44,872 nucleotides of DNA from Arenimonas sp. (GTDB lineage Bacteria > Pseudomonadota > Gammaproteobacteria > Xanthomonadales > Xanthomonadaceae). Shown here one piece after another: positions 10,183 to 23,463 of the stretch. Positions within the stretch are counted from its first letter, which is position 1, and each line of letters begins with the position of its first letter. The position numbers and the translations under genes are program-made. The notes under the pieces were generated by a model. The model saw nothing but the letters and a program-made list of their open reading frames with translations. It did no database searches and had not been told where the DNA came from. The stretch spans positions 1-44,872 of the forward strand of contig NZ_JALHQI010000019.1 in assembly GCF_022842045.1 (NCBI RefSeq), read 5' to 3'.

Positions 10183-10869
10183 GTGATCGACCTTTACTAT
10201 TGGCCGACGCCGAACGGCCACAAGATCACCCTCTTCCTTGAGGAAGCCGGCCTGCCCTACCGCATCGTGCCGGTGGACATCGGGGCCGGCGACCAGTTCA
10301 AGCCGGAATTCCTGGCGATCTCCCCCAACAACCGCATGCCGGCGATCGTGGACCACGCGCCGGCCGACGGCGGCGAGCCGATCAGCGTGTTCGAGTCCGG
10401 TGCCATCCTGCAGTACCTGGCGGATAAATGCGGCCAGCTCCTGCCCCCCGCGGTGCGCGAGCGCAAGGCCGTGCTGGAGTGGCTGTCGTGGCAGCTGGGC
10501 GGCTTCGGGCCGATGCTGGGGCAGAACCACCACTTCACCCGCTACGCGCCCGAGAAGGTGCCTTACGCCATCGAGCGCTACCAGCGCGAGACCGCGCGGC
10601 TGTACGGCGTGCTGGACCGCCATCTCGCCGGGCGCGGGTTCATCGCCGGCGACGCACTGTCGATCGCGGACCTGGCCTGCCACCCGTGGGCGAACGCGCA
10701 TGCCTGGCACCACGTCGACCTGGCCGACTACCCCGAGGTTCGGCGCTGGCATGCCGCGCTGGCGGCGCGGCCCGCATTCGTGCGCGCCTATGCGCTCGAA
10801 CAAACCTACAAGCGTCCCGCCGACATGACCGACGAGATGCGTCGCAACCTGTTTGGGCGCCCCGCCTGA
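10183..10869 (+). CDS. Glutathione S-transferase, Nu-class (YfcG/YghU-like), GTG start
   Basis: This 228-residue protein has an N-terminal thioredoxin-fold domain and a helical C-terminal domain. The opening IDLYYWPTPNGHKITLFLEEAGLPY carries the Thr and Asn positions (PTPNGHK) of Nu-class enzymes such as YfcG, which bind two glutathiones and act mainly as disulfide reductases. NRMPAIVDH and VFESGAILQYLA form the glutathione gamma-glutamyl site, and GDALSIADLACHPW is the usual N-capping motif of the C-terminal domain. The GTG at 10183 is the only sensible start, with a GAGG upstream. It follows the SDR by nine bases, so a shared role in detoxification or redox repair is possible. Confidence 0.92.
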   Translation: MIDLYYWPTPNGHKITLFLEEAGLPYRIVPVDIGAGDQFKPEFLAISPNNRMPAIVDHAPADGGEPISVFESGAILQYLADKCGQLLPPAVRERKAVLEWLSWQLGGFGPMLGQNHHFTRYAPEKVPYAIERYQRETARLYGVLDRHLAGRGFIAGDALSIADLACHPWANAHAWHHVDLADYPEVRRWHAALAARPAFVRAYALEQTYKRPADMTDEMRRNLFGRPA

Positions 10870-10894
10870 ACCCCTGACCGCTCCGGAGCCCACC

Positions 10895-14025
<3,131 letters not shown>

Positions 14026-14045: not shown

Positions 14046-14825
14046 TCAGCGCGACAGCTGGACGATCGCAGGCGCATGGTCGCTCGGGCGCTCCCAGGTG
14101 CGCGGTTCCCTGTCGATGCTGGCGCCCACGCAACGTTCGCGCAGGGCGTCGCTGACCAGGCACAAGTCGATGCGCAGGCCCAGGTTTCGGCGGAAGCCGG
14201 CGGCGCGGTAGTCCCACCAGCTGAACACGCCACCGTCCTCGTTGTGCAGGCGGTAGCTGTCGTGCAGGCCCAGCGCCAGCAGCCGCTGCAGCGCGGCGCG
14301 CTCGGCGGTGGAAGTGAGGATGCTGGCGTCGTTCCACACCGCCGGGTCGTGCACGTCGCGGTCGTCAGGGGCGATGTTGAAGTCGCCGAGCACGACCATC
14401 CGCGGGTGCGCCTTCATCTCTTCGGCCAGCCAGCCGTGCACGGCGTCGAGCCAGCGCAGCTTGTAGTCGTACTTGTCGGTGCCCACGTCCTGGCCGTTCA
14501 CCACGTACAGGTTGACGATGCGCAGACCGCCGACGGTGGCGGCGATCACGCGCTTCTGCTCGTCCTCGAACCCCGGGATGCCCACCTGCACGTCGGTCGC
14601 CGGCTCGCGCGAGACGATGGCGACGCCGTTGTAGGTCTTCTGGCCGGCGAACACGCTGCGGTAGCCCAGCGCCGCCAGCGCGTCGTCGGGGAAGCGGGCG
14701 TCCTCGAGCTTGGTCTCCTGCAGCGCGACGATGTCGGGCGCGCGCAGCTTCAGCCATTCCTCCAGGTGCGGGAGGCGGACGTTGAGGGAGTTGACGTTCC
14801 AGCTGGCGATCGTGGTCGTATCCAT
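14046..14825 (-). CDS. xthA: Exodeoxyribonuclease III
   Basis: This 259-residue AP endonuclease/3'-exonuclease repairs abasic sites. Motifs of the family are in order: IASWNVNSLNVRL (metal Asn), DIVALQETKLED (catalytic Glu), YNGVAIVSR, IVNLYVVNGQ, MVVLGDFNIAPDDRDVHD (catalytic Asp/Asn), FSWWDYRAAGFRRNLGLRIDLCLVSD and the terminal PSDHAPAIVQL (catalytic Asp/His). Length matches. No Shine-Dalgarno is present; TAGCAT lies six bases before the ATG, suggesting a leaderless message. It marks the left border of the cyanophycin-type uptake locus: the dipeptidase gene ends 46 bases upstream in the same direction. Confidence 0.95.
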   Translation of the reverse strand: MDTTTIASWNVNSLNVRLPHLEEWLKLRAPDIVALQETKLEDARFPDDALAALGYRSVFAGQKTYNGVAIVSREPATDVQVGIPGFEDEQKRVIAATVGGLRIVNLYVVNGQDVGTDKYDYKLRWLDAVHGWLAEEMKAHPRMVVLGDFNIAPDDRDVHDPAVWNDASILTSTAERAALQRLLALGLHDSYRLHNEDGGVFSWWDYRAAGFRRNLGLRIDLCLVSDALRERCVGASIDREPRTWERPSDHAPAIVQLSR

Positions 14826-14837: not shown

Positions 14838-14870
14838 ACGGTTCGCGCCGCACCCAGCCACGGCGGGGAC

Positions 14871-16019
14871 TCACCCGCCCGTGCGCAGCCGTCCGCCGGC
14901 GACCACGGCCTCGATCGCAAGGGTCCGCGGCGACAGCAGCAGCAGGTCGGCGTCCATGCCCACGGCCAGCCGGCCCTTGCGTCCGAGGCCCCAGATCGCT
15001 GCCGGCGTTGCGGTCAAGGCGGGCAGCACCGCCTCGAGCGCCATGCCGGACTGCTGCACCGCGGACACCAGCGACGCATGCAGGCTGGCCATCGACGCCA
15101 CCTCCAGTCCGAGCAGCCTTCCTTCCGCGTCGAAATGCGGCAGGCTGGCCTGGCCATCGGAACTGAGGCTGATGCGCGCCACCGGATGGCCTGCCCGCAG
15201 CAATTCCACCAGCGCCTCCGCCGCCGGCACTTCGCCCGCCGCCAGCAGGTCCTCGCTGGTGCTGGTGGTGAGGTCGATGCTGCCGCCCCGGGCCAGCCAC
15301 GCCGCCGATTGGTCGAGCAAGGCGCGGTTCCGGTTGAGATGGGTCGGATGCCACTGCGAAGCGGGCACCGCATGCCGGGTGGTGACGTCGTGCAGCAGGG
15401 CCAGGCCCTCCGCGCTGTCGCCAACGTGCACGAGCACCGTGCCGCGCTTGCCGGCGAGCAGGCCGCCCACGCGCGCATCGGCGGCGATTCGCGCCAGCTC
15501 GTCGACATTGGGCTGCGAGCCGCGATGGTCGGCGATGGCGATCTCGCCGACGCCAAGGAAGTCGGGCACCAGCACCAGGTCGTCGCGGACGCTGCCGGTC
15601 AGCGTGCGAACGGGCACCCGGTAGCTGCCGGTCAACGCATAGGCGCTCAGTCCGTGCGCGCCCAGCGCGCGGCAGGAGGCCAGCAGATCGGCGTGGCTGC
15701 GCGTCACGTCGTCGGTGCCCAGCGCACCCACCAGCGTGGTGACGCCCGCCGCGATCGCATCCGCCGGCTGCAGCGCCGGCGTGCGCGTGCCGAAGCCGCC
15801 TTCGCCGCCGCCGCCGCTGACGTGCACCAGCGAGTCCACGAAGCCGGGCACGGCCAGCCGGCCGGCCGCATCAAGCTCGACGACTTCCAGCCCCCGGCCC
15901 GGCTCGATCCGCGGCGCGATCGCGACGATGCGCCCGCCCGCCAGCAGCAGGTCGGCCATGCCCCGGTCCTCGGGCACGTACATCCGCGCGTTGCGCACCA
16001 GCAAGACCGGATCAGGCAT
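14871..16019 (-). CDS. iadA: Isoaspartyl dipeptidase (IadA-like amidohydrolase) with altered metal site
   Basis: The 382-residue protein aligns end to end with E. coli isoaspartyl dipeptidase as I recall it (YVPEDRG, GGGGEGGFGTRTP, LTGSY, TGSVRDD, ADHRGSQPN, VHVGDS, PTHLNRN, LSSDG). It should cleave beta-aspartyl dipeptides in the cytoplasm. Substrate-site residues are kept: Glu73, Tyr133, Arg166, Arg230, Asp288. Two metal-site residues are not. The HxH motif reads L64-V-H66, so the first His is Leu, and the Lys that is normally carboxylated to bridge two metals is Glu159. His198 and His227 remain. This resembles the one-metal arrangement (Glu plus two His) of E. coli NagA. It overlaps the upstream transporter gene by eight bases and is the last gene of the receptor operon. 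Its context suggests beta-Asp-Arg as substrate. Confidence 0.9.
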   Translation of the reverse strand: MPDPVLLVRNARMYVPEDRGMADLLLAGGRIVAIAPRIEPGRGLEVVELDAAGRLAVPGFVDSLVHVSGGGGEGGFGTRTPALQPADAIAAGVTTLVGALGTDDVTRSHADLLASCRALGAHGLSAYALTGSYRVPVRTLTGSVRDDLVLVPDFLGVGEIAIADHRGSQPNVDELARIAADARVGGLLAGKRGTVLVHVGDSAEGLALLHDVTTRHAVPASQWHPTHLNRNRALLDQSAAWLARGGSIDLTTSTSEDLLAAGEVPAAEALVELLRAGHPVARISLSSDGQASLPHFDAEGRLLGLEVASMASLHASLVSAVQQSGMALEAVLPALTATPAAIWGLGRKGRLAVGMDADLLLLSPRTLAIEAVVAGGRLRTGG

Positions 16020-17421
16020 ATCCCACTCCCAGGGCCAGGGCGACGGTGGCCGCCGCCATGGCCATGAACAAAACGAAAAGCCGCCAGATCATGCGCAGCC
16101 ACTCACCCCAGCCAATCCCGGCAACGCCGATGGCGCCCATCATCACCGCCGAGGTCGGCACCACCAGGTTGGTCAGGCCGTCGCCCAGCTGGAAGGCGAG
16201 CACCGCCACCTGGCGCGGCACCTGCAGCAGGTCGCCCAGGCCCGCCATCAGCGGCATGGTGATCGCGGCCTGCGCCGACCCGGACGTGACGAAGAAATTG
16301 AAGACCGACTGGAACACCAGCATGCCCTGCGCCGCGGCCCAGGTCGGCCAGCCCTCCAGCAGGTGGCCGATGCCGTAGAGCAACGTGTTGAGGACGGAGG
16401 GCTGGTGCGGATCGGCGCCGCCCAGCAGCCACAGCATGCCCTTGGCCGCGGCGATCACCAGCGCCACCGGCACCAGCTGCTTCACGCCGTCGGTGAAGGT
16501 TTCAGCCAGCGTGTTGGCATCCATGCGCCGGTCGAGCCAGGCGACGACCGCCGCGAACAGGCCGAGCGCGAAGAACTGCGCCGACAGCTCCGGCAGGTAA
16601 TACTGGCGCTCGGTGACGCCCCAGACGATCCAGGCCACGGTGGCCACGAGCCCCAGCAGGATCACGCGGTCTGCCCAGCCCAGCGCGACGCGCGAGACCT
16701 CCACCGGCGCGTCCGCGCGCGGCCGCCGGTAGCGGCGGGCGTACCAGATCGTGAACGCCAGGCCGGTCGCGGTGAACACCGCCCACATGCCGATGCGGAA
16801 GCCCGCGCCCGACAGCGGCGGCAAGCCGGCGATGCCCTGCGCCACCAGCACGCTGAAGGGATTCATCCAGGACGTGGCGAAGCCGACCTGGCTGGCGAGG
16901 TAGGTGGCCATCACCGCGCATTCGCGCGGCAGGCCCAGGCGATCCACCAGCGGCAGCAGCAGCACGATGAAGGCGATGGTTTCCTCGCCCATGCCGAAAA
17001 CGGCGCCGCCGAGCGAAAACGCCACGAACAGGCTGCCCAGCAACCAGGCCGGACGATCGCCCGTGAGCGAGACCAGCTTCATCAGGCCGCGGTCGACCGC
17101 GCCGGTGGCGCTGACCACCGCGAAGGAGCCGCCGACGATGAGGATGAGGGCGATGACGCCGACCGCGGCGCCGTTGCGCCCGCCCGACACCAGGCCTTCG
17201 AAGAGGAAGTTCAAAAAACCGCGCCCATCCTCGGTGCCGAACAGGACCGAGGTGGGCGCGCCGGGGACCCACGAGAACCGCTCCAGCGCCACCGGGGCAC
17301 CGGGCTCGAACACGCCGGCCGGCACCCAGGGCACCACCAGCGCCGCCAGCAAGGCGATAGCCAGCAGCACCAGGAAGGTATTGACGCCCTTGCCGGACGA
17401 CGCGGGAGCGGGTGTGGTCAA
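16012..17421 (-). CDS. YfcC/DcuC-family inner-membrane transporter, probable TTG start
   Basis: The protein of about 469 residues has 11-12 predicted membrane helices and the layout of the YfcC family (PF03606, C4-dicarboxylate anaerobic carrier-like): a first helix NTFLVLLAIALLAALVVPWVPAG, then GGSFAVVSATGAVDRGL, FGMGEETIAFIVLLLPLV, SQVGFATSWMNPFSVLVAQGIAGLPP, and near the end FNFFVTSGSAQAAITMPLMAGLGDLL and QLGDGLTNLVVPTSAVMMGAIGVAGI. Members are secondary carriers for dicarboxylates, amino acids or peptides. The frame has no ATG or GTG near the true N-terminus; the TTG at 17421, five bases after the receptor stop, is the best start. It overlaps the dipeptidase gene by eight bases. In this operon it would carry beta-aspartyl dipeptides across the inner membrane (inference). 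Confidence 0.85.
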   Translation of the reverse strand: MTTPAPASSGKGVNTFLVLLAIALLAALVVPWVPAGVFEPGAPVALERFSWVPGAPTSVLFGTEDGRGFLNFLFEGLVSGGRNGAAVGVIALILIVGGSFAVVSATGAVDRGLMKLVSLTGDRPAWLLGSLFVAFSLGGAVFGMGEETIAFIVLLLPLVDRLGLPRECAVMATYLASQVGFATSWMNPFSVLVAQGIAGLPPLSGAGFRIGMWAVFTATGLAFTIWYARRYRRPRADAPVEVSRVALGWADRVILLGLVATVAWIVWGVTERQYYLPELSAQFFALGLFAAVVAWLDRRMDANTLAETFTDGVKQLVPVALVIAAAKGMLWLLGGADPHQPSVLNTLLYGIGHLLEGWPTWAAAQGMLVFQSVFNFFVTSGSAQAAITMPLMAGLGDLLQVPRQVAVLAFQLGDGLTNLVVPTSAVMMGAIGVAGIGWGEWLRMIWRLFVLFMAMAAATVALALGVGYA

Positions 17422-17425
17422 AGGC

Positions 17426-20185
17426 TCAATACCGGTAGACGTAGTCGAGGGTGATGAAGCGGCCGAGCGAGTTGTGGTTGTAGTCGTCGAAGTTGCTGGC
17501 CGAACCCAGCGCCCGCGGCGGATCGCGGTCGGCCAGGTTGCGCACCACCAGGCCCAGCGACTGGCGATCGTCGAGGTCCCAGCCGACGCTGGCGTTGAGC
17601 GTAGTCCAGGACCCGATGCGGCGCCCGGCCGGCACGTTCGAGAGCTCGTCGTCATCATAGAAGCCATCGACGTGGTTCGCCCAGAAGCGCGCACTCCAGT
17701 TGCCGCCGCTCCAGGAAATGCCGGCGTTCACCAGCCACTCCGGGTAGCGGAACTCGCCCACGCGTTCGAACAGGCGCACGCCATCGTTGCAGGCACCGGC
17801 GCCGCGCCGGGTGCTGGTGTCGCCCGGCGAGCAGGATTCGCTGCGCTCGAACGAGCGGGTCCAGGTGGCGTCGACGTAGGCGCCGAACTGGCCGGAGGCG
17901 CCTTCGGCGAAGCGATGGTCCAGGCTGATGTCGACGCCGTCGGTGCGCTGCTGGCCGATGTTGATCAGCTGCAGCTGCACGTCCTCGATCGGGTCGCCGA
18001 TGGCGCCGCCGCGGGTGACGATGCCGATCACACCCGGCGGCAGGTCGCCGCGGTCATAGACCAGGCTGGGGTCGGCCAGCGCCTGGCGGAAGAGCTCGAG
18101 CGGGTCGATGTCCACCAGGTCGCGCTGGTCGAAGTTCCAGTAGTCCACCGTCAGCGTGGTGCGGTCGCCGAGGCTGAACACGCTGCCCAGGTACCAGGCG
18201 GTCGAGGTTTCGGCCTCGAGCGCGGGGTTGCCGTAGATCTCCGAGAGGTAACCGTCGTCGCCTTCGAAGCCGCCGCAGAACGTATCGAAGAACTCGCTGC
18301 CCGCCGAGCACGGCAGCGCACCCGAGCTGAGCGAGGTGCCGGCGCCGACCTGGGCCAGCGAGGGCGCGCGGAAGGAGGTGTTCCAGCCGCCGCGGAACAG
18401 CACGGCGTCGCTCACCCGCCAGCGCAGGCCGATGGCCGGGTTCACGTCGCCGCCGAAGTCGTCGTAATGGTCGTAGCGCGCCGCCAGCCGCACGTCGAAG
18501 GTCGCGGTGACCGGCAGGTTGGTTTCGGCATACATCGCCCACTGCGTGCGCGCCGCCTCGACGGCGGTCGAACCGAAGCCATACACCGGCACTTCGCCGG
18601 TATCGCGATCGATCTCGGCCAGCGGAGACGGCTCGTCGGTGATCTTCTCGCGGCGGGCCTCGGCGCCGAAGGCCCAGGCGATGTCGCCGCCGGGCAGGCT
18701 GCCGAAGCTGCCGGCGACCTTGCCGTCCCAGGCGTAGAGCGTGGAGGTGCCGTCGCGCGGCACGCGCTCGCGAACCAGGTCGAGCACCTGCTGCGAATTG
18801 CCGGCTTGCGCGTTGAACGGGTCGTACCACAACCCACCGGCGCCCGGACTGCAGTTGGTGGCACCGTCGGCACACAGTTCGCCGAGCAGGCCGGCGCGGA
18901 TGCGCGCCACGTTGTAGATGCCGGCGATCGCCTCCTGGCGCGATTCGCTGCGCGAGGCCGAGACGGTGGTTTCCCAGTCCCAGTTACCGGCGACGCCGCG
19001 CAGGCCGTTGAGCAGGCGCCAGCTGCGCGTGGTGACCTCGAGCGTGCGCGCGTCGGGGAAGCGGCCGATGCCCACCAGCGCCGTGGTGTCGAAGCCCTGG
19101 TCGATGAAGCGCTGGCGCAGCTCCGCCGGCATGCCCGGGTGGTCGAAGGCGATGAGCTCTTCGGTCCACGGCGCCGGTGAAGAGTCGGCGCGCGATTCAT
19201 TGCGCTGCAGCGCCAGCTCGGCGAAATACTCCAGCCCCCCGTCGAACTCCACCGACAGCGTGCCGTAGCCGCCGAGGGTCTTGAGCTGCGGGTCGGTGGC
19301 GGTGAACGCGTTGCGGTTGACCTCGCAGTACTCGCCGAACCGTCCGACGCCGAACTGGTCCGCGGGGCAGGCGGCCTCGACGATGTCGTCCTGGGCGAAG
19401 TCGAGGTCGTTGAAGCTCGGGTAGATGCCCTGCTGCGACGGCCGCGGCTCGACCGCCGAGATCGCGCGGTCGCGGTCGTACAGGGCATTGCGCTGGAAGG
19501 CATCGACGATCAGCATGCCGCGCACGCGGTCGCGGGCGAAGCCGGCCACGAGGTTCGCGTTCATGCGGCCCTCGTCGGTGCTGCGGGTCGAATCGCCGTA
19601 GCTCGCCGACAGGCGCACGCCCTCGAAGTCGCGCCTGAGGATCAGGTTGACCACGCCGGCGACCGCGTCGGCGCCGTAGATCGCGGACGCGCCGGTGGTC
19701 AGGATCTCGACGCGCTCGATCGCGGCCATCGGGATCGCGTTGATGTCGACGAAGTTCTCGGAGCCGTTCGCGAACGACGAAGCCGCCACGCGGCGGCCGT
19801 TGACCAGGGTCAGCGTGGACGAGGTGCCCAGGCCGCGCAGCGATGCGCCGGCGGTGCCCGCGGGCGCATCGGCCTGCAGCGCGCCGGAATTGGCGGTACT
19901 GAAGTTGCCGGTGCCGCCGCCGGTCTCGGAGACCTGCTTGAGCAGGTCGCCGACACTGGTGGCGCCGAAGGCCTTGATGTCCTCGGCGTCGATCACGATC
20001 ACCGGCTGCGCTTCCTGCAGGTCGATGCCGCGCAGGTTGGAGCCGGTGACGTTGACGGCATCGAGGCGCACGGCCTCGTCGCCGGCCGGCGGCGCCTCGG
20101 CTTCGGCCTGGGACTGGGCGACCGCGACTGGCGCGGCCAGGACCATCGCCACGGCGACGGCGAGCGGTTTGAGCATGGATTTCAT
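17426..20185 (-). CDS. TonB-dependent outer-membrane receptor, putative (iso)aspartyl-peptide or cyanophycin-product uptake
   Basis: The 919-residue protein has a signal peptide (MKSMLKPLAVAVAMVLAAPVAVA), a possible TonB box (VRLDAVNVTGSNL), and a plug domain with IKAFGATSVGDLLKQ, GASLRGLGTSSTLTLVNGRR, PMAAIERVEILTTGASAIYGADAVAGVVNLIL. The 22-stranded barrel domain follows, with FRGGWNTSFRAPSLAQVG and NPALEAETSTAWYLG, and ends in the aromatic DYVYRY expected for outer-membrane insertion. It resembles the large Xanthomonadales receptors with two Cys-containing extracellular loops (AACPADQF, LPCSAGSEFFDTFCGG). The ATG at 20185 follows GGGGGAA. The next two genes (transporter, dipeptidase) follow four bases on and with overlap, so they form one operon. 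The ligand is inferred from neighbours. Confidence 0.93.
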   Translation of the reverse strand: MKSMLKPLAVAVAMVLAAPVAVAQSQAEAEAPPAGDEAVRLDAVNVTGSNLRGIDLQEAQPVIVIDAEDIKAFGATSVGDLLKQVSETGGGTGNFSTANSGALQADAPAGTAGASLRGLGTSSTLTLVNGRRVAASSFANGSENFVDINAIPMAAIERVEILTTGASAIYGADAVAGVVNLILRRDFEGVRLSASYGDSTRSTDEGRMNANLVAGFARDRVRGMLIVDAFQRNALYDRDRAISAVEPRPSQQGIYPSFNDLDFAQDDIVEAACPADQFGVGRFGEYCEVNRNAFTATDPQLKTLGGYGTLSVEFDGGLEYFAELALQRNESRADSSPAPWTEELIAFDHPGMPAELRQRFIDQGFDTTALVGIGRFPDARTLEVTTRSWRLLNGLRGVAGNWDWETTVSASRSESRQEAIAGIYNVARIRAGLLGELCADGATNCSPGAGGLWYDPFNAQAGNSQQVLDLVRERVPRDGTSTLYAWDGKVAGSFGSLPGGDIAWAFGAEARREKITDEPSPLAEIDRDTGEVPVYGFGSTAVEAARTQWAMYAETNLPVTATFDVRLAARYDHYDDFGGDVNPAIGLRWRVSDAVLFRGGWNTSFRAPSLAQVGAGTSLSSGALPCSAGSEFFDTFCGGFEGDDGYLSEIYGNPALEAETSTAWYLGSVFSLGDRTTLTVDYWNFDQRDLVDIDPLELFRQALADPSLVYDRGDLPPGVIGIVTRGGAIGDPIEDVQLQLINIGQQRTDGVDISLDHRFAEGASGQFGAYVDATWTRSFERSESCSPGDTSTRRGAGACNDGVRLFERVGEFRYPEWLVNAGISWSGGNWSARFWANHVDGFYDDDELSNVPAGRRIGSWTTLNASVGWDLDDRQSLGLVVRNLADRDPPRALGSASNFDDYNHNSLGRFITLDYVYRY

Positions 20186-20251
20186 GGTGTTCCCCCGGAC
20201 GGCCGCGGGCGCGCCCGGTGGCGCGGTTGGCGGCGCTGGCTTGGATGTTTT

Positions 20252-20291
20252 CGCCGTCGACGACGGCGGCTCACCGACCCAGGCAGGTCGG
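20252..20291 (-). promoter_or_regulatory. Two inverted repeats in the receptor-gene leader
   Basis: Two short hairpins lie between the 23-codon ORF and the receptor start. One is CCGACC/GGTCGG with a six-base loop (20274-20291). The other is a seven-base-pair stem around GCCGTC/GACGGC with a three-base loop (20252-20268). Neither is followed by a T-run on the minus strand, so they are not obvious terminators; they could be leader structures or protein sites, or simply GC-rich chance. Confidence 0.3.
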
Positions 20292-20311
20292 CGTGGGGCC
20301 CGGGGATGGCC

Positions 20312-20383
20312 CTACTCGTCCCACCACTCGCTGAGGTAGTAGGTCCGGCAGATATGGCGGATGTGGGCGTGCGTCTTCGGCAT
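20312..20383 (-). CDS. Possible 23-residue leader peptide ORF upstream of the TonB receptor gene
   Basis: On the minus strand an ATG at 20383 opens a 23-codon ORF ending in TAG. The peptide begins MPKTHAHIRHICR and ends YYLSEWWDE, so it is rich in His, Arg and aromatic residues and does not look like random GC-rich codon use. It sits 126 bases before the receptor ATG, on the same strand, just after a predicted promoter, and is followed by two hairpins. An AAGAG about nine bases upstream is a weak ribosome site. It could be a regulatory leader peptide, a small protein, or chance. I do not recognise a family. Confidence 0.35.
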   Translation of the reverse strand: MPKTHAHIRHICRTYYLSEWWDE

Positions 20384-20408
20384 GTCACCAACTCTTGCTG
20401 CGGGGCAA

Positions 20409-20438
20409 GGTTTACTCCCGGCCACGCGCCCGCGTCAA
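20409..20438 (-). promoter_or_regulatory. Predicted promoter for the receptor-transporter-dipeptidase operon
   Basis: On the minus strand TTGACG (20438-20433, five of six matches to the -35 consensus) is followed after 18 bases by TAAACC (20414-20409, weak -10). The start point would fall near 20402, giving a leader of about 215 bases that includes the 23-codon ORF. The -35 overlaps the palindrome at 20436-20447. Confidence 0.35.
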
Positions 20439-20447
20439 GTGCACTTG
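20436..20447. promoter_or_regulatory. Perfect 12-bp palindrome, candidate operator between divergent genes
   Basis: CAAGTGCACTTG is its own reverse complement. It shares bases with the predicted minus-strand -35 (20433-20438) and the predicted plus-strand -35 (20445-20450), so one bound regulator could control both directions. The core AGTGCACT fits the GTnnAC pattern of FadR-type GntR regulators, among others. No regulator gene lies next to it. Confidence 0.45.
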
Positions 20448-20473
20448 CCCGGCCAGCGGCCAGACACTAGGGT
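20445..20473 (+). promoter_or_regulatory. Predicted leaderless promoter of the cyanophycinase gene
   Basis: TTGCCC (20445-20450), a 17-base spacer and TAGGGT (20468-20473) are followed by six bases and the ATG at 20480. The spacing is ideal for sigma-70, but the -10 is weak apart from TA and final T. TAGGGT could instead be read as a poor ribosome site (AGGG). Confidence 0.4.
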
Positions 20474-20479
20474 CGGCGC

Positions 20480-22234
20480 ATGCCCAGACTCCTTCCCCTG
20501 CTGCTGTTGCTGGCGTCCCCGCACGCCCTGGCCACGCCGCCGCGCGCGAGCGAACTCTTCCTTGCCGGCGGCTCCCTGCGCACCTGCTCCGACCTCGCGC
20601 CCCAGGCCTGCCGCAGCCCGCGCACCGACCCCACGCGGCGCCAGCCCGCGCGCTATCTCGTCGACGACGAGTCGATCGCGCGCGCGCTCGACCCCCTGCT
20701 TTGGCGGGCCAGCGCCGGTGCGCCACCGGCCTCCGCGCTGGCGCCGATGCTCGCAAGCGCCGCGCGCGACGCCGACTGGAGCCGCGACCAGCTTGAAGAT
20801 CACTTCAGCGCCTACTGTCCACGCGCGACCTGCGATGGCGTCGCCTTCGGCTCGCCCTGGCAGCGCCTGCTGGACGACGAACAGGCTGCCCTGCTGAGCG
20901 CGCTCGAACGGCCGCAGCGCCACGGGGACGGCCGGGCGCGTGAACGCGCCGACCTGGCCGACAGCCGCGAACAGGCGGGCGTGGCGATCCTGCGCGCCTT
21001 CGTCGCCGCCGCGGCCGCGCGTGCCGACGGGCGGCCGCCGCGGATCGCCGTGGTCACCGCCTCGGCGGTGGATCCCTTCGACCCGGTGGACTTCTACCTC
21101 GATGCCTTCCGCGAGCTCGGCGCCGACGCCGTGTGGTGGCCCGTGGACGCCGCCCTGAAAGCCGCGGTTTCCAGCGGCGACTGCGACGCGCTGGAGTCGC
21201 TGCGCCGCGAGCACCTGCAGCTGGCGGACCGCGACCGGATCTACCCGGACCTGGCCGAACAGCAGCGCCAGGCCTGCCTGGACCCGGAAGCAACGGCCGC
21301 ACTGCCGGGCCAGGTGCAGGGCATGTTCTTCGCCGGTGGCGACCAGTGGCGTCACCGCGCGGCCTTCTTCGATGCCGCCGATCGCCCCAACGCCTGGCTT
21401 GTTTCGCTGCGCGCTTCGCATGCCAGCGGCGCGCTGGTGGTGGGCGGCACCAGCGCGGGTACGGCGGTGCAGGGCGGCGCGGCGATGCTGAGCAACGGCA
21501 CCAGTGCCCTGGCGCTGCGCGAAGGTGCCCGCGCCCGCGCCCCGATGGCGCCGGGCTGTGCGCGCGCCGGCCGCTGCGCCGACGGACTGGACGAAGACAC
21601 GCTGACCTACTGGGATCGCGGCGGCCTGGGCCTGCTGCCCGGCTGGACGATGGACACGCACTTCTCGGAACGCGCCCGCGAACTGCGGCTGCTGGCGCTG
21701 ATGCATGCCGCCAAGGTCGACCATGCGCTCGGCGTTGACGAGACCAGCGCCATCCGCGTGGTGAAGCAGGACGGCGCCCTGCGCTTTGAGGCGCTTGGTG
21801 CGCAAGGCGGCTGGCTGTTCGAGCGGCAGCCGGAAACCCCGGACGGGGCCATGGCCGCGCGCGTCCACTACCTCGCGCCGGGCGCGGAATTCTCGCTCGA
21901 GGCAGCCGGGCTGAAGCCGCTCGCGCCCCTCGGCAACGTCGTGTCGGACGCCGCAGCGCCGCGCGGCGCGGCCACTCGGCAAGCGGCCGAGGCGAACGCC
22001 GCGTCGGGGCACGATGCCCTCGCCCCGGAGAGCCTGCGTGCAGCCGCCCGTGTCGCCGCGGACTGCAGCCGCACACTTCGACCGCTGTCGGCCGGCGACG
22101 GCACGGCGACGCTCGCCTGCACCGACGCCACCTTCGCCTGGCCCGCACCGGGCACCGGATCCCGGACCACGCGCGGCGTGGGCAACCTGCTGCTGCGCTA
22201 CGCCCCGGGCGCGGAGGAAGAGCGTTCGCGCTGA
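20480..22234 (+). CDS. Secreted cyanophycinase-like serine peptidase (S51 family)
   Basis: The 584-residue protein has a signal peptide (MPRLLPLLLLLASPHALA) and S51/cyanophycinase features: ELFLAGGSLRTC at the mature N-terminus, PRIAVVTASAVDPFDPVDFY, GMFFAGGDQWRH, nucleophile Ser325 in GGTSAGTAVQGG, His394 in MDTHFSERARELRLL and Glu421 in LGVDETSAI. These are the Ser-His-Glu positions of cyanophycinases, which cut the Arg-Asp polymer cyanophycin into beta-Asp-Arg dipeptides. It is much longer than cytoplasmic enzymes (about 270 residues) and than secreted CphE (about 420, from memory). The extra length is mainly an insertion around residues 36-185 and a C-terminal region after residue 430. 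It is divergent from the receptor operon, which supplies uptake and the final dipeptide cleavage. Another S51 peptidase specificity (Asp dipeptides) is the main alternative. Confidence 0.85.
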   Translation: MPRLLPLLLLLASPHALATPPRASELFLAGGSLRTCSDLAPQACRSPRTDPTRRQPARYLVDDESIARALDPLLWRASAGAPPASALAPMLASAARDADWSRDQLEDHFSAYCPRATCDGVAFGSPWQRLLDDEQAALLSALERPQRHGDGRARERADLADSREQAGVAILRAFVAAAAARADGRPPRIAVVTASAVDPFDPVDFYLDAFRELGADAVWWPVDAALKAAVSSGDCDALESLRREHLQLADRDRIYPDLAEQQRQACLDPEATAALPGQVQGMFFAGGDQWRHRAAFFDAADRPNAWLVSLRASHASGALVVGGTSAGTAVQGGAAMLSNGTSALALREGARARAPMAPGCARAGRCADGLDEDTLTYWDRGGLGLLPGWTMDTHFSERARELRLLALMHAAKVDHALGVDETSAIRVVKQDGALRFEALGAQGGWLFERQPETPDGAMAARVHYLAPGAEFSLEAAGLKPLAPLGNVVSDAAAPRGAATRQAAEANAASGHDALAPESLRAAARVAADCSRTLRPLSAGDGTATLACTDATFAWPAPGTGSRTTRGVGNLLLRYAPGAEEERSR

Positions 22235-22383: not shown

Positions 22384-22446
22384 GCGTTGCCATCGCGCCC
22401 CGGCTCGGCCAGAGTGGCGGCTCGCTTCCCGCCACCGGACCCGCGC

Positions 22447-23463
22447 ATGCCCTGGGTAGACCTTCGCAGCGACACCGTGACCCGCCCCACCGATGCGATG
22501 CGCGAGGCCGGGCTGCGCGCGCCGGTCGGCGACGACGTGATGGGTGACGACCCGAGCGTGAACGCACTGCAGGACCGGCTCTCGGGCGAACTCGGCTTCG
22601 AAGCCGGCCTGTTCGTGCCCAGCGGAACCCAGAGCAACCTGCTGGCGCTGATGGCGCACTGCGAGCGCGGCGACGAATACCTGGTGGGCATGGACGCGCA
22701 CACCTACAAGTACGAAGGCGGCGGCGCCGCCGTGCTGGGCTCGATCCAGCCGCAGCCCATCGTCAACGCGCCCGACGGCACGCTGCCGCTGGATGCCGTG
22801 GCCGCCGCGATCAAGCCCGCCGGCGATCCCCATTTCGCGCGCACGCGGCTGCTGGCGCTGGAGAACACCTGGCACGGCCGCGTGCTGCCCCTGCCCTACC
22901 TCGCGCAGGCGCGCGACCTGGCCAAGGCCCACGGCCTGGGCTACCACCTCGATGGCGCGCGGCTCTACAACGCGGCGGTCGCCGGCGGCACCAGCGCGGC
23001 GCACATCGCCTCGCATTTCGATTCCGTGTCGGTGTGCCTGTCGAAGGGCCTGGGCGCGCCGGTGGGCTCGGTGCTGCTGGGCACGCACGCACTGATCGAC
23101 AAGGCGCGCCGCTGGCGCAAGGTGCTGGGCGGCGGCTGGCGCCAGGCCGGGCAGCTGGCGGCGATGGCTTCGCATGCGCTCGACCACCACGTCGCGCGCC
23201 TGGCCGACGACCACCGCCGCGCCGCGCAGCTGGCCGACGCGCTGGCGGCGCTGCCCGGCGTGCAGGTGGAGACGCCGCAGACCAACCTGGTCTTCATCAC
23301 CGTGCCCGATGGCCGGCAGGCCGCGCTGGCCGCGCATCTTCGCGACGAGGGCGTGCTGGTTTCGGTAGGTCGCGGCCCGCGCATCCGACTGGTGACCCAC
23401 CTGGACGTGGATGACGCCGGGCTGGCCTGCGCGATCGCGGCCTTCCGAGGCTTCTTCGGGTGA
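22447..23463 (+). CDS. ltaE: Low-specificity L-threonine aldolase
   Basis: This 338-residue PLP enzyme splits L-threonine and L-allo-threonine into glycine and acetaldehyde. Features are VDLRSDTVTRPTDAMREAG at the N-terminus, VGDDVMGDDPSVNALQ, FVPSGTQSNLLALMAHC, the tripeptide region LENTWHGRVLP, the PLP-binding Asp in YHLDGARLYNAAVA, and the Schiff-base Lys in VCLSKGLGAPVGS. Length is typical. The ATG at 22447 starts directly at the conserved N-terminus; the frame is open 20 codons further upstream but without similarity. It stands alone after the cytochrome b561 remnant. Confidence 0.95.
   Translation: MPWVDLRSDTVTRPTDAMREAGLRAPVGDDVMGDDPSVNALQDRLSGELGFEAGLFVPSGTQSNLLALMAHCERGDEYLVGMDAHTYKYEGGGAAVLGSIQPQPIVNAPDGTLPLDAVAAAIKPAGDPHFARTRLLALENTWHGRVLPLPYLAQARDLAKAHGLGYHLDGARLYNAAVAGGTSAAHIASHFDSVSVCLSKGLGAPVGSVLLGTHALIDKARRWRKVLGGGWRQAGQLAAMASHALDHHVARLADDHRRAAQLADALAALPGVQVETPQTNLVFITVPDGRQAALAAHLRDEGVLVSVGRGPRIRLVTHLDVDDAGLACAIAAFRGFFG

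Follow-up and report, generated by a model that had tools for sequence, protein, structure and literature searches.

What a compact four-gene locus of Arenimonas sp. does, and what switches it, is the question addressed here. The locus lies in a contig of 44,872 nt (NZ_JALHQI010000019.1, the whole of which is called the window), and the original prediction had read its genes, for a secreted S51 peptidase, a TonB-dependent receptor (TBDR), a YfcC-type carrier and an isoaspartyl dipeptidase, as a full route for scavenging cyanophycin shed by other bacteria. Absent from that account were a leader micro open reading frame (micro-ORF) upstream of the receptor gene (20312-20383, − strand) and a His-to-Leu change in the dipeptidase. 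Building on observed gene content, conservation, active-site residues, fold, co-occurrence across genomes, leader conservation and leader stop-codon bias, we think it probable that the locus serves cyanophycin utilization and carries an attenuator of its own, a reading in which the activities, the uptake, the stalling, its ligand and the sign of the response are all inferred.

In the proposed route, the exported S51 peptidase would cut cyanophycin to beta-Asp-Arg dipeptides, either extracellularly or in the periplasm, the TBDR would carry cyanophycin fragments or dipeptides across the outer membrane, and the YfcC-type carrier would move dipeptides across the inner membrane, where the dipeptidase would cleave them to aspartate and arginine. 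A leader of 23-24 aa would switch the receptor-carrier-dipeptidase operon.

Gene content and distribution of the module

The S51 gene (20480-22234, + strand), coding for a long form of 584 aa, is divergent from three − strand genes, namely those for the TBDR (17426-20185, 919 aa; PF00593, E = 2e-40; PF07715, E = 8.2e-20), which is the first large gene of the operon, for the YfcC/DcuC-type inner-membrane carrier (16012-17421, 469 aa, TTG start at 17421; PF03606, E = 3.5e-99, 332.9 bits) and for the IadA-like dipeptidase (14871-16019, 382 aa; TIGR01975, 402.8 bits, above the cut-off of 331.25). The TBDR stop and the carrier start are 4 bases apart, the carrier and dipeptidase genes overlap by 8 bases (ATGCCTGA), and the divergent spacer of 294 bases holds the leader on the TBDR strand; the four genes, their strands, the gap and the overlap, read from coordinates and sequence, are as first described. 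The carrier scored 498 bits against the YfcC model NF008611, with a cut-off of 500, and clearly exceeded the threshold of PF03606.

An alignment of nine S51 proteins served as the query for a scan of 84,980 species genomes, from which the best 80 of 342 relatives were kept (the 80 loci), picked by S51 similarity alone, with partner genes counted within 9 kb of the S51 gene. All three partners (TBDR, carrier and IadA) were present in 54 of the 80 loci and at least one in 66, with a TBDR in 62. The order IadA-carrier-TBDR, divergent from S51, was shared by 47 loci, and in five all four genes ran in one direction with S51 last. Module-bearing taxa were Gammaproteobacteria and one member of the Bdellovibrionota, with order and gene set kept in Lysobacteraceae, Shewanella, Idiomarina, Colwellia, Ferrimonas and one Pseudobacteriovorax metagenome-assembled genome (MAG). 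The gene set is widespread and is not a chance neighbourhood, which answers the objection to which the original prediction had exposed itself. Weighing against the module, 14 of the 80 loci with the long S51 gene had no partner gene; several of these are cut by contig ends, and five (L082, L086, L106, L116 and L150) are partnerless despite 10 kb on either side. In four small Arenimonas-like genomes (L082, L083, L084 and L087), the long S51 protein is 39-41% identical to that of the window and has no partners on the fetched stretch.

Within a sample of the genus the full set was found in 3 of 27 genomes (G000, G002 and G010). The module is flanked in the window by genes for exodeoxyribonuclease III (ExoIII; 14046-14825) and threonine aldolase (22387-23463). 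Among 13 congeners inspected at the flanking ExoIII gene, nine (L190-L198) had the threonine aldolase gene adjoining it and no module between, and the remaining four had no aldolase match on the fetched stretch. DNA similarity of the window to the nine ended at about 14848-14860 and restarted at 22227-22232 in eight of them, and farther in for L198; two short matches within the module (23 and 38 bases) may be chance. The module is therefore gained or lost as one block at a single site. Base composition gave no sign of recent horizontal capture, as the G+C of 2-kb blocks of the module (0.695-0.738) falls within the range of the window (0.684-0.750).

Scavenging, as opposed to storage, was assessed through the cyanophycin synthetase gene, cphA, which the original prediction had suggested looking for. 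No cphA passed the cut-off in the genome of the window (3.08 Mb, 94.89% complete), the best match scoring 74.6 bits against a cut-off of 850. Across the 49 genomes taken from full-module loci (L097, L129, L144, L146 and L140 being left out), cphA passed the cut-off in 7, and G067 gave a partial match of 621.7 bits. By comparison, among 739 genomes in which a cyanophycinase was recognizable, 658 were reported to have cphA1 (PMC10206079). In G002, which is the same assembly as G061, reached through L073, cphA lies on contig 22 together with an IadA with the usual HxH zinc-ligand pair and a short S51 protein, and the module lies on contig 44. The window thus joins a cyanophycinase-like gene, an isoaspartyl dipeptidase gene and transporter genes in one cluster without cphA, the arrangement used to recognize cyanophycin utilization loci, and scavenging of cyanophycin by the module is likely.

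The proposal of a scavenging route is in part upheld by the co-occurrence, the general lack of cphA, and the peptidase triad, pocket and fold (see below), and its novelty had been overstated. Clusters of cyanophycinase, iadA and transporter genes in scavengers are already in print (Discussion of PMC10206079, citing Ben Hania et al. 2017). The L21-Spi-D4 locus described there resembles the window in this clustering; the window differs in its TonB receptor and YfcC-type carrier, its long S51 protein, its LxH dipeptidase (see below) and its leader, a comparison made via the citing paper and leaving transporter types aside. In Citromicrobium JLT1363, a TonB receptor encoded next to a cyanophycinase has likewise been suggested to take up cyanophycin (PMC3400609); that locus shares this adjacency with the window, and the text searched mentions no dipeptidase and describes neither carrier nor leader. 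The carrier half of the uptake route may be new, as we found no paper on a YfcC carrier in such a role in the literature searched. Neither the receptor-carrier pair in this exact, widely conserved order nor the LxH clade was met in that literature, nor was the leader micro-ORF, for which no search asked about leader peptides. The scavenging idea is thus already known, and to our knowledge the leader micro-ORF and LxH clade are new.

A leader micro-ORF ahead of the receptor gene

The leader of the window has 23 codons (MPKTHAHIRHICRTYYLSEWWDE), ends in TAG, and carries a conserved C-terminal motif. Of 63 loci, namely the window and the 62 with a TBDR match (the 18 of the 80 loci with no TBDR match within 9 kb were left out), 62 had an ORF ending LSE(W/F)(W/F)(D/N)E-stop that lay 79-320 nt upstream of the estimated start of the TBDR gene. 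Taking the ATG nearest to 24 aa, its length was 23 or 24 aa in 53 of the 62. Read in six frames across the window and the 80 loci (1,536,434 bp), the motif turned up in 67 of the 81 sequences, always as a single copy: 62 times before the TBDR gene, before the carrier gene in L121, L132 and L135, before IadA in L117, and before a PPC-S51 gene in L108. The 14 sequences without it were L152, which has a TBDR, and 13 of the 14 partnerless loci.

Independently of the long S51 query, whole genomes were searched with a 24-base degenerate pattern covering the last seven residues and the stop, the same pattern read backwards serving as control. It was found in 2 of 369 genomes of a class sample (control 1), 15 of 398 of an order sample (control 1) and 47 of 50 genomes with the module or the long S51 gene that were reached through the loci (control 0). 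The three of these 50 in which the pattern occurs nowhere are Idiomarina genomes (L106, L110 and L116) whose long S51 gene has no partners. Among the order matches, that in G484 does not encode the peptide, and the other 14, like the class match in G456, lie beside module genes. Six genomes (G077, G836, G105, G107, G109 and G845) hold a second copy, in all six upstream of a PPC-S51 protein and on its strand; the five proteins checked exceed the Pfam thresholds of both the PPC and the S51 family and score 61.6-73.1 bits against TIGR02069, under its cut-off, and the sixth is cut by a contig end. In G797 the leader stands upstream of a PPC-S51 gene and a carrier gene at the same exodeoxyribonuclease/aldolase site. 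The leader thus heads transcription units of differing make-up that share one theme, and this is the best evidence here that it responds to a cue from cyanophycin breakdown.

Most of the conservation falls in the last 8-9 residues, and it extends to the stop codon. From position −8 the consensus is Y (61 of 62), L, S, E, W, (F/W), (D/N), E; all 62 leaders share the Leu, Ser, Glu and Trp. The conserved stretch could instead act as RNA or DNA, for instance as an operator or riboswitch, with the reading frame incidental, and the third base of codon −2 would fit this, being C in 60 of 61 leaders, with 28.8 expected on the basis of these loci (this count and the neighbour-stop counts below exclude the window). 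Synonymous third positions nevertheless vary where the amino acid is fixed, with five codons used for Leu, six for Ser and variation for Glu too, position −3 stays aromatic although Trp and Phe, with their different codons, alternate there, and Rfam gave no family at threshold across 19900-20700, with one sub-threshold match. We consider such a nucleic-acid element very unlikely, and a riboswitch or known RNA was dropped on the Rfam result.

Leader stops were TAG in 43, TAA in 19 and TGA in none of 62 leaders, compared with 31 TAG, 116 TAA and 80 TGA among 227 neighbouring genes (Fisher P = 5e-17 for TAG and 1e-10 for TGA, kinship ignored). UAG and UAA are the stops read by release factor 1 (RF1). 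Strong amino-acid conservation would also be expected if the micro-ORF encoded a small protein that works in trans, not a cis-acting attenuator. Every unit, however, has its own copy just upstream on the same strand, conservation centres on the last 8-9 residues and runs into a stop codon of biased identity, and the penultimate codon is constrained beyond what its amino acid needs, all of which makes a trans-acting protein unlikely.

The 126-nt stretch between the leader stop and the TBDR start (20186-20311, − strand) is a proposed zone of Rho-dependent attenuation, for which the C bias and the scarcity of intrinsic terminators would speak. C exceeded G in the 80 nt after the leader stop in 55 of 62 loci, compared with 23 of 62 upstream of the frame. 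A simple scan found no intrinsic terminator between leader and TBDR in the window and one in only 3 of the 62 loci, and attenuation by intrinsic terminators was dropped on this account.

The leader is a short ORF directly upstream of a gene and has a conserved C-terminus, as arrest-type leaders do. Its short length, conserved end and stop choice, the C-rich spacer and the few terminators fit a device like TnaC or SpeFL by analogy, and the micro-ORF is probably a nascent-peptide attenuator that acts as the switch of the operon. In TnaC and SpeFL, a ligand-dependent block of release at the leader stop hides a Rho site. Both resemble the window leader in being ORFs of about 24 aa whose C-terminal part is conserved, and their control of the following gene is Rho-linked, as is proposed here; the fungal arginine attenuator peptide resembles it in its 24-aa scale and conserved C-terminal part; the window leader is unrelated in sequence to all three as far as compared. 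A YLS(D/E)..W likeness to the fungal peptide is perhaps chance. By the mechanism we favour, a signal of cyanophycin breakdown (arginine, beta-Asp-Arg or similar) would cause the nascent YLSEW(W/F)(D/N)E to block RF1 release at UAG or UAA, and the stalled ribosome would keep Rho from terminating the transcript in the roughly 80-320 nt ahead of the receptor gene.

Several observations count against the attenuator. A Shine-Dalgarno-like 4-mer precedes only 15 of the 62 leaders, a point that may speak against efficient leader translation or for an unusual start. The excess of C over G is only suggestive of a Rho site, the leader rows are related, so that the counts are not independent events, and L152 has a TBDR and no leader. 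Control by ArgR, a further candidate, was rejected after a scan for 14-base palindromes in 56 divergent spacers, where the mean best score was 7.1 against 6.9 in shuffles. Exact matches to the ArgR-box consensus were confined to L131 and L143 (Ferrimonas; TGAATAATCATTCA and TGAATAAGTATTCA), the other 54 spacers having none.

Four leader peptides gave nothing over cut-off in Pfam and NCBIfam (a weak PF18341 match reached 16.1 of 27 bits), and the window peptide had no match among PDB chains, both being queries so short that they hardly score. We suggest more tentatively, at slightly less than even chances, that YLSEW(W/F)(D/N)E-stop marks a new family of arrest peptides for which arginine or beta-Asp-Arg, sensed at RF1 termination, is the ligand and whose regulon spans at least two unrelated cyanophycin units (receptor-carrier-dipeptidase and PPC-S51), with the LxH dipeptidase as the matching enzyme, specialised for beta-Asp-Arg. 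If so, the leader would follow the same logic in bacteria as the arginine attenuator peptide does in fungi, perhaps with convergence in sequence. Few bacterial metabolite-sensing leader peptides are known and their shortness makes them hard to detect; this one is a fixed feature of gammaproteobacterial families and of one MAG of the Bdellovibrionota, would be tied to a defined nutrient, and could serve as a sequence tag for cyanophycin regulons in genomes.

An LxH clade of isoaspartyl dipeptidases

The zinc ligands of LmIadA are H64, H66, E159, H198 and H227 (PMC10206079). In the window dipeptidase, codon 64 is CTG (15828-15830, − strand), which places Leu at the position of LmIadA His64 and EcIadA His68, and the other ligands are kept with identical numbering. 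The protein therefore has LxH in place of the HxH expected of an IadA. Leu stood at the first His in 60 of 61 IadAs encoded no more than 9 kb from the S51 gene across the 80 loci; the one His was that of L097 (a Natronospira MAG), where the nearest IadA, an HxH form, is found on the opposite flank of the S51 gene. Outside the module, IadAs of relatives had His in 15 of 17 examined (the IadA place in G010:C140 being left out) and Leu in G038 and G050, and the LxH clade is therefore wider than the module. In these two genomes (loci L059 and L060, respectively) the LxH gene is solitary, with no S51, TBDR or carrier match nearby, and the leader pattern is absent from the genome.

After removal of three duplicate rows, which applies to the tree and to all column counts, an unrooted tree of 79 IadAs parted 63 LxH from 16 HxH sequences by a single branch with support of 100/100. 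Leu64 is present in all 63 LxH rows, which rules out a sequencing error. CpsIadA is an HxH enzyme and so not a solved member of the clade; the PDB alignments of all five IadA entries looked at, of nine, were HxH. The loss of a residue that is a zinc ligand in LmIadA and EcIadA, in 63 of 63 clade members, would fit a dead or re-purposed paralogue, with the dipeptide split by other means, and the change could lower or alter dipeptidase activity, which would tell against the proposed route. The nine other catalytic or binding positions (H66, E73, T102, Y133, E159, H198, H227, R230 and D288) are nevertheless kept in 63 of 63 rows, and the module dipeptidase is the only protein over the TIGR01975 cut-off in its own genome. 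For the ZN1 site of CpsIadA, moreover, the relevant passage of PMC5517026 names only the second His, Glu166 and Asp293, so that zinc could still be bound in spite of the missing first His. We regard a dead or re-purposed enzyme as improbable and retain cleavage of beta-Asp-Arg as the putative function.

Twelve columns distinguish LxH from HxH proteins, including 253/254, 262/263 and 291/292. These lie near the two loops that, according to PMC10206079, surround the entrance for the non-Asp portion of the substrate. Glu263 is present in 60 of 63 LxH rows, the position being Ala in 14 of 16 HxH rows, and could bind the arginine side chain. The clade thus shares with the type I dipeptidases LmIadA and CpsIadA a Glu in place of a carboxylated Lys and all other named active-site residues (PMC10206079 and PMC5517026), and differs in Leu for the first His of HxH and in the 12 subfamily columns, several of them in loops near the side-chain opening. 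In PMC10206079, where an HxH IadA and an IaaA were assayed, IadAs in cyanophycin clusters were concluded not to be specialised. The LxH clade bears on that conclusion, as neither assayed enzyme belongs to it.

The S51 peptidase and its substrate

The original prediction had labelled the peptidase an S51 enzyme with a Ser325/His394/Glu421 triad. We aligned 50 homologues drawn from the 80 loci, the window protein included, and found all three residues invariant, with Ser325 in a GxSxG motif, as were the pocket residues Gln289, Asp392, Thr393, Arg398, Arg400 and Arg403. In the alignment to 3en0, Gln289, Asp392, Arg398, Arg400 and Arg403 correspond to CphB Gln101, Asp172, Arg178, Arg180 and Arg183, which are termed critical in PMC3235067, and Thr393 matches the Thr of the extracellular CphE. 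An AlphaFold2 model (mean pLDDT 91.5) was compared with the PDB using Foldseek; the top nine matches were all cyanophycinase entries (3en0, 7uqw and 7uqv), with dipeptidase E entries next, and the best matches, to 7uqw and 3en0, had E values of 8.5e-13 to 1.6e-12. By triad and modelled fold the protein is a cyanophycinase-like member of family S51, and cyanophycinase activity is likely.

Profile models place it less firmly. The window protein scores 62.9 bits against the TIGR02069 cyanophycinase model, below the cut-off of 126.6, and so is not filed as a TIGR02069 equivalog, a result unfavourable to a cyanophycinase, and it has no match to Pfam S51 (PF03575). Among the homologues, TIGR02069 matched at E <= 0.001 in 50 of 50 and Pfam S51 in 36 of 50. 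The S51 label of the window protein accordingly calls for caution as regards the profile models, and is backed by the triad, the fold and the homologue matches. Also unfavourable, 7uqv, titled pseudo-CphB and reportedly inactive, retains the GGDQ and DQHF..R.R..R residues, and because of this the motif residues of the window protein do not prove activity.

The N-terminus resembles a Sec signal peptide, judged by eye, six Cys invariant among the 50 homologues fit an exported protein, and the genome encodes GspD of a type II system. Compared with CphE of Pseudomonas (PMC3235067), the protein shares the Sec signal, the Ser/His/Glu triad, the Thr before the catalytic His and the pocket residues, and it differs in length (584 aa against about 420 aa for CphE), in extra N- and C-terminal regions and in its score below the TIGR02069 cut-off. 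The S51 protein of L097 has an N-terminus with the look of a lipoprotein signal, by eye.

A module that feeds on a different beta-aspartyl or Asp-rich peptide, for example isoaspartyl dipeptides of damaged protein, with an S51 protein that is not a cyanophycinase, would accommodate the promiscuity of IadAs beside cyanophycin genes (PMC10206079), the presence of other activities in S51, e.g., MccG and PepE (PMC9239234), and the retention of the pocket motif by pseudo-CphB. Against this, the pocket residues are invariant in all 50 homologues, PepE structures rank under the cyanophycinases, and in six genomes the leader links the operon to a second, different secreted protein of TIGR02069/PF03575 type. 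A substrate other than cyanophycin is accordingly rather unlikely.

Of the genes around the module, the flanking aldolase is of the GntG family of pyridoxal-phosphate enzymes (NF041359, 445 bits against a cut-off of 230) and is probably unrelated to it. Beyond the ExoIII flank lie genes for a DPP IV-like S9 peptidase (11728-14025) and a SoxH-related metallo-hydrolase (10853-11809).

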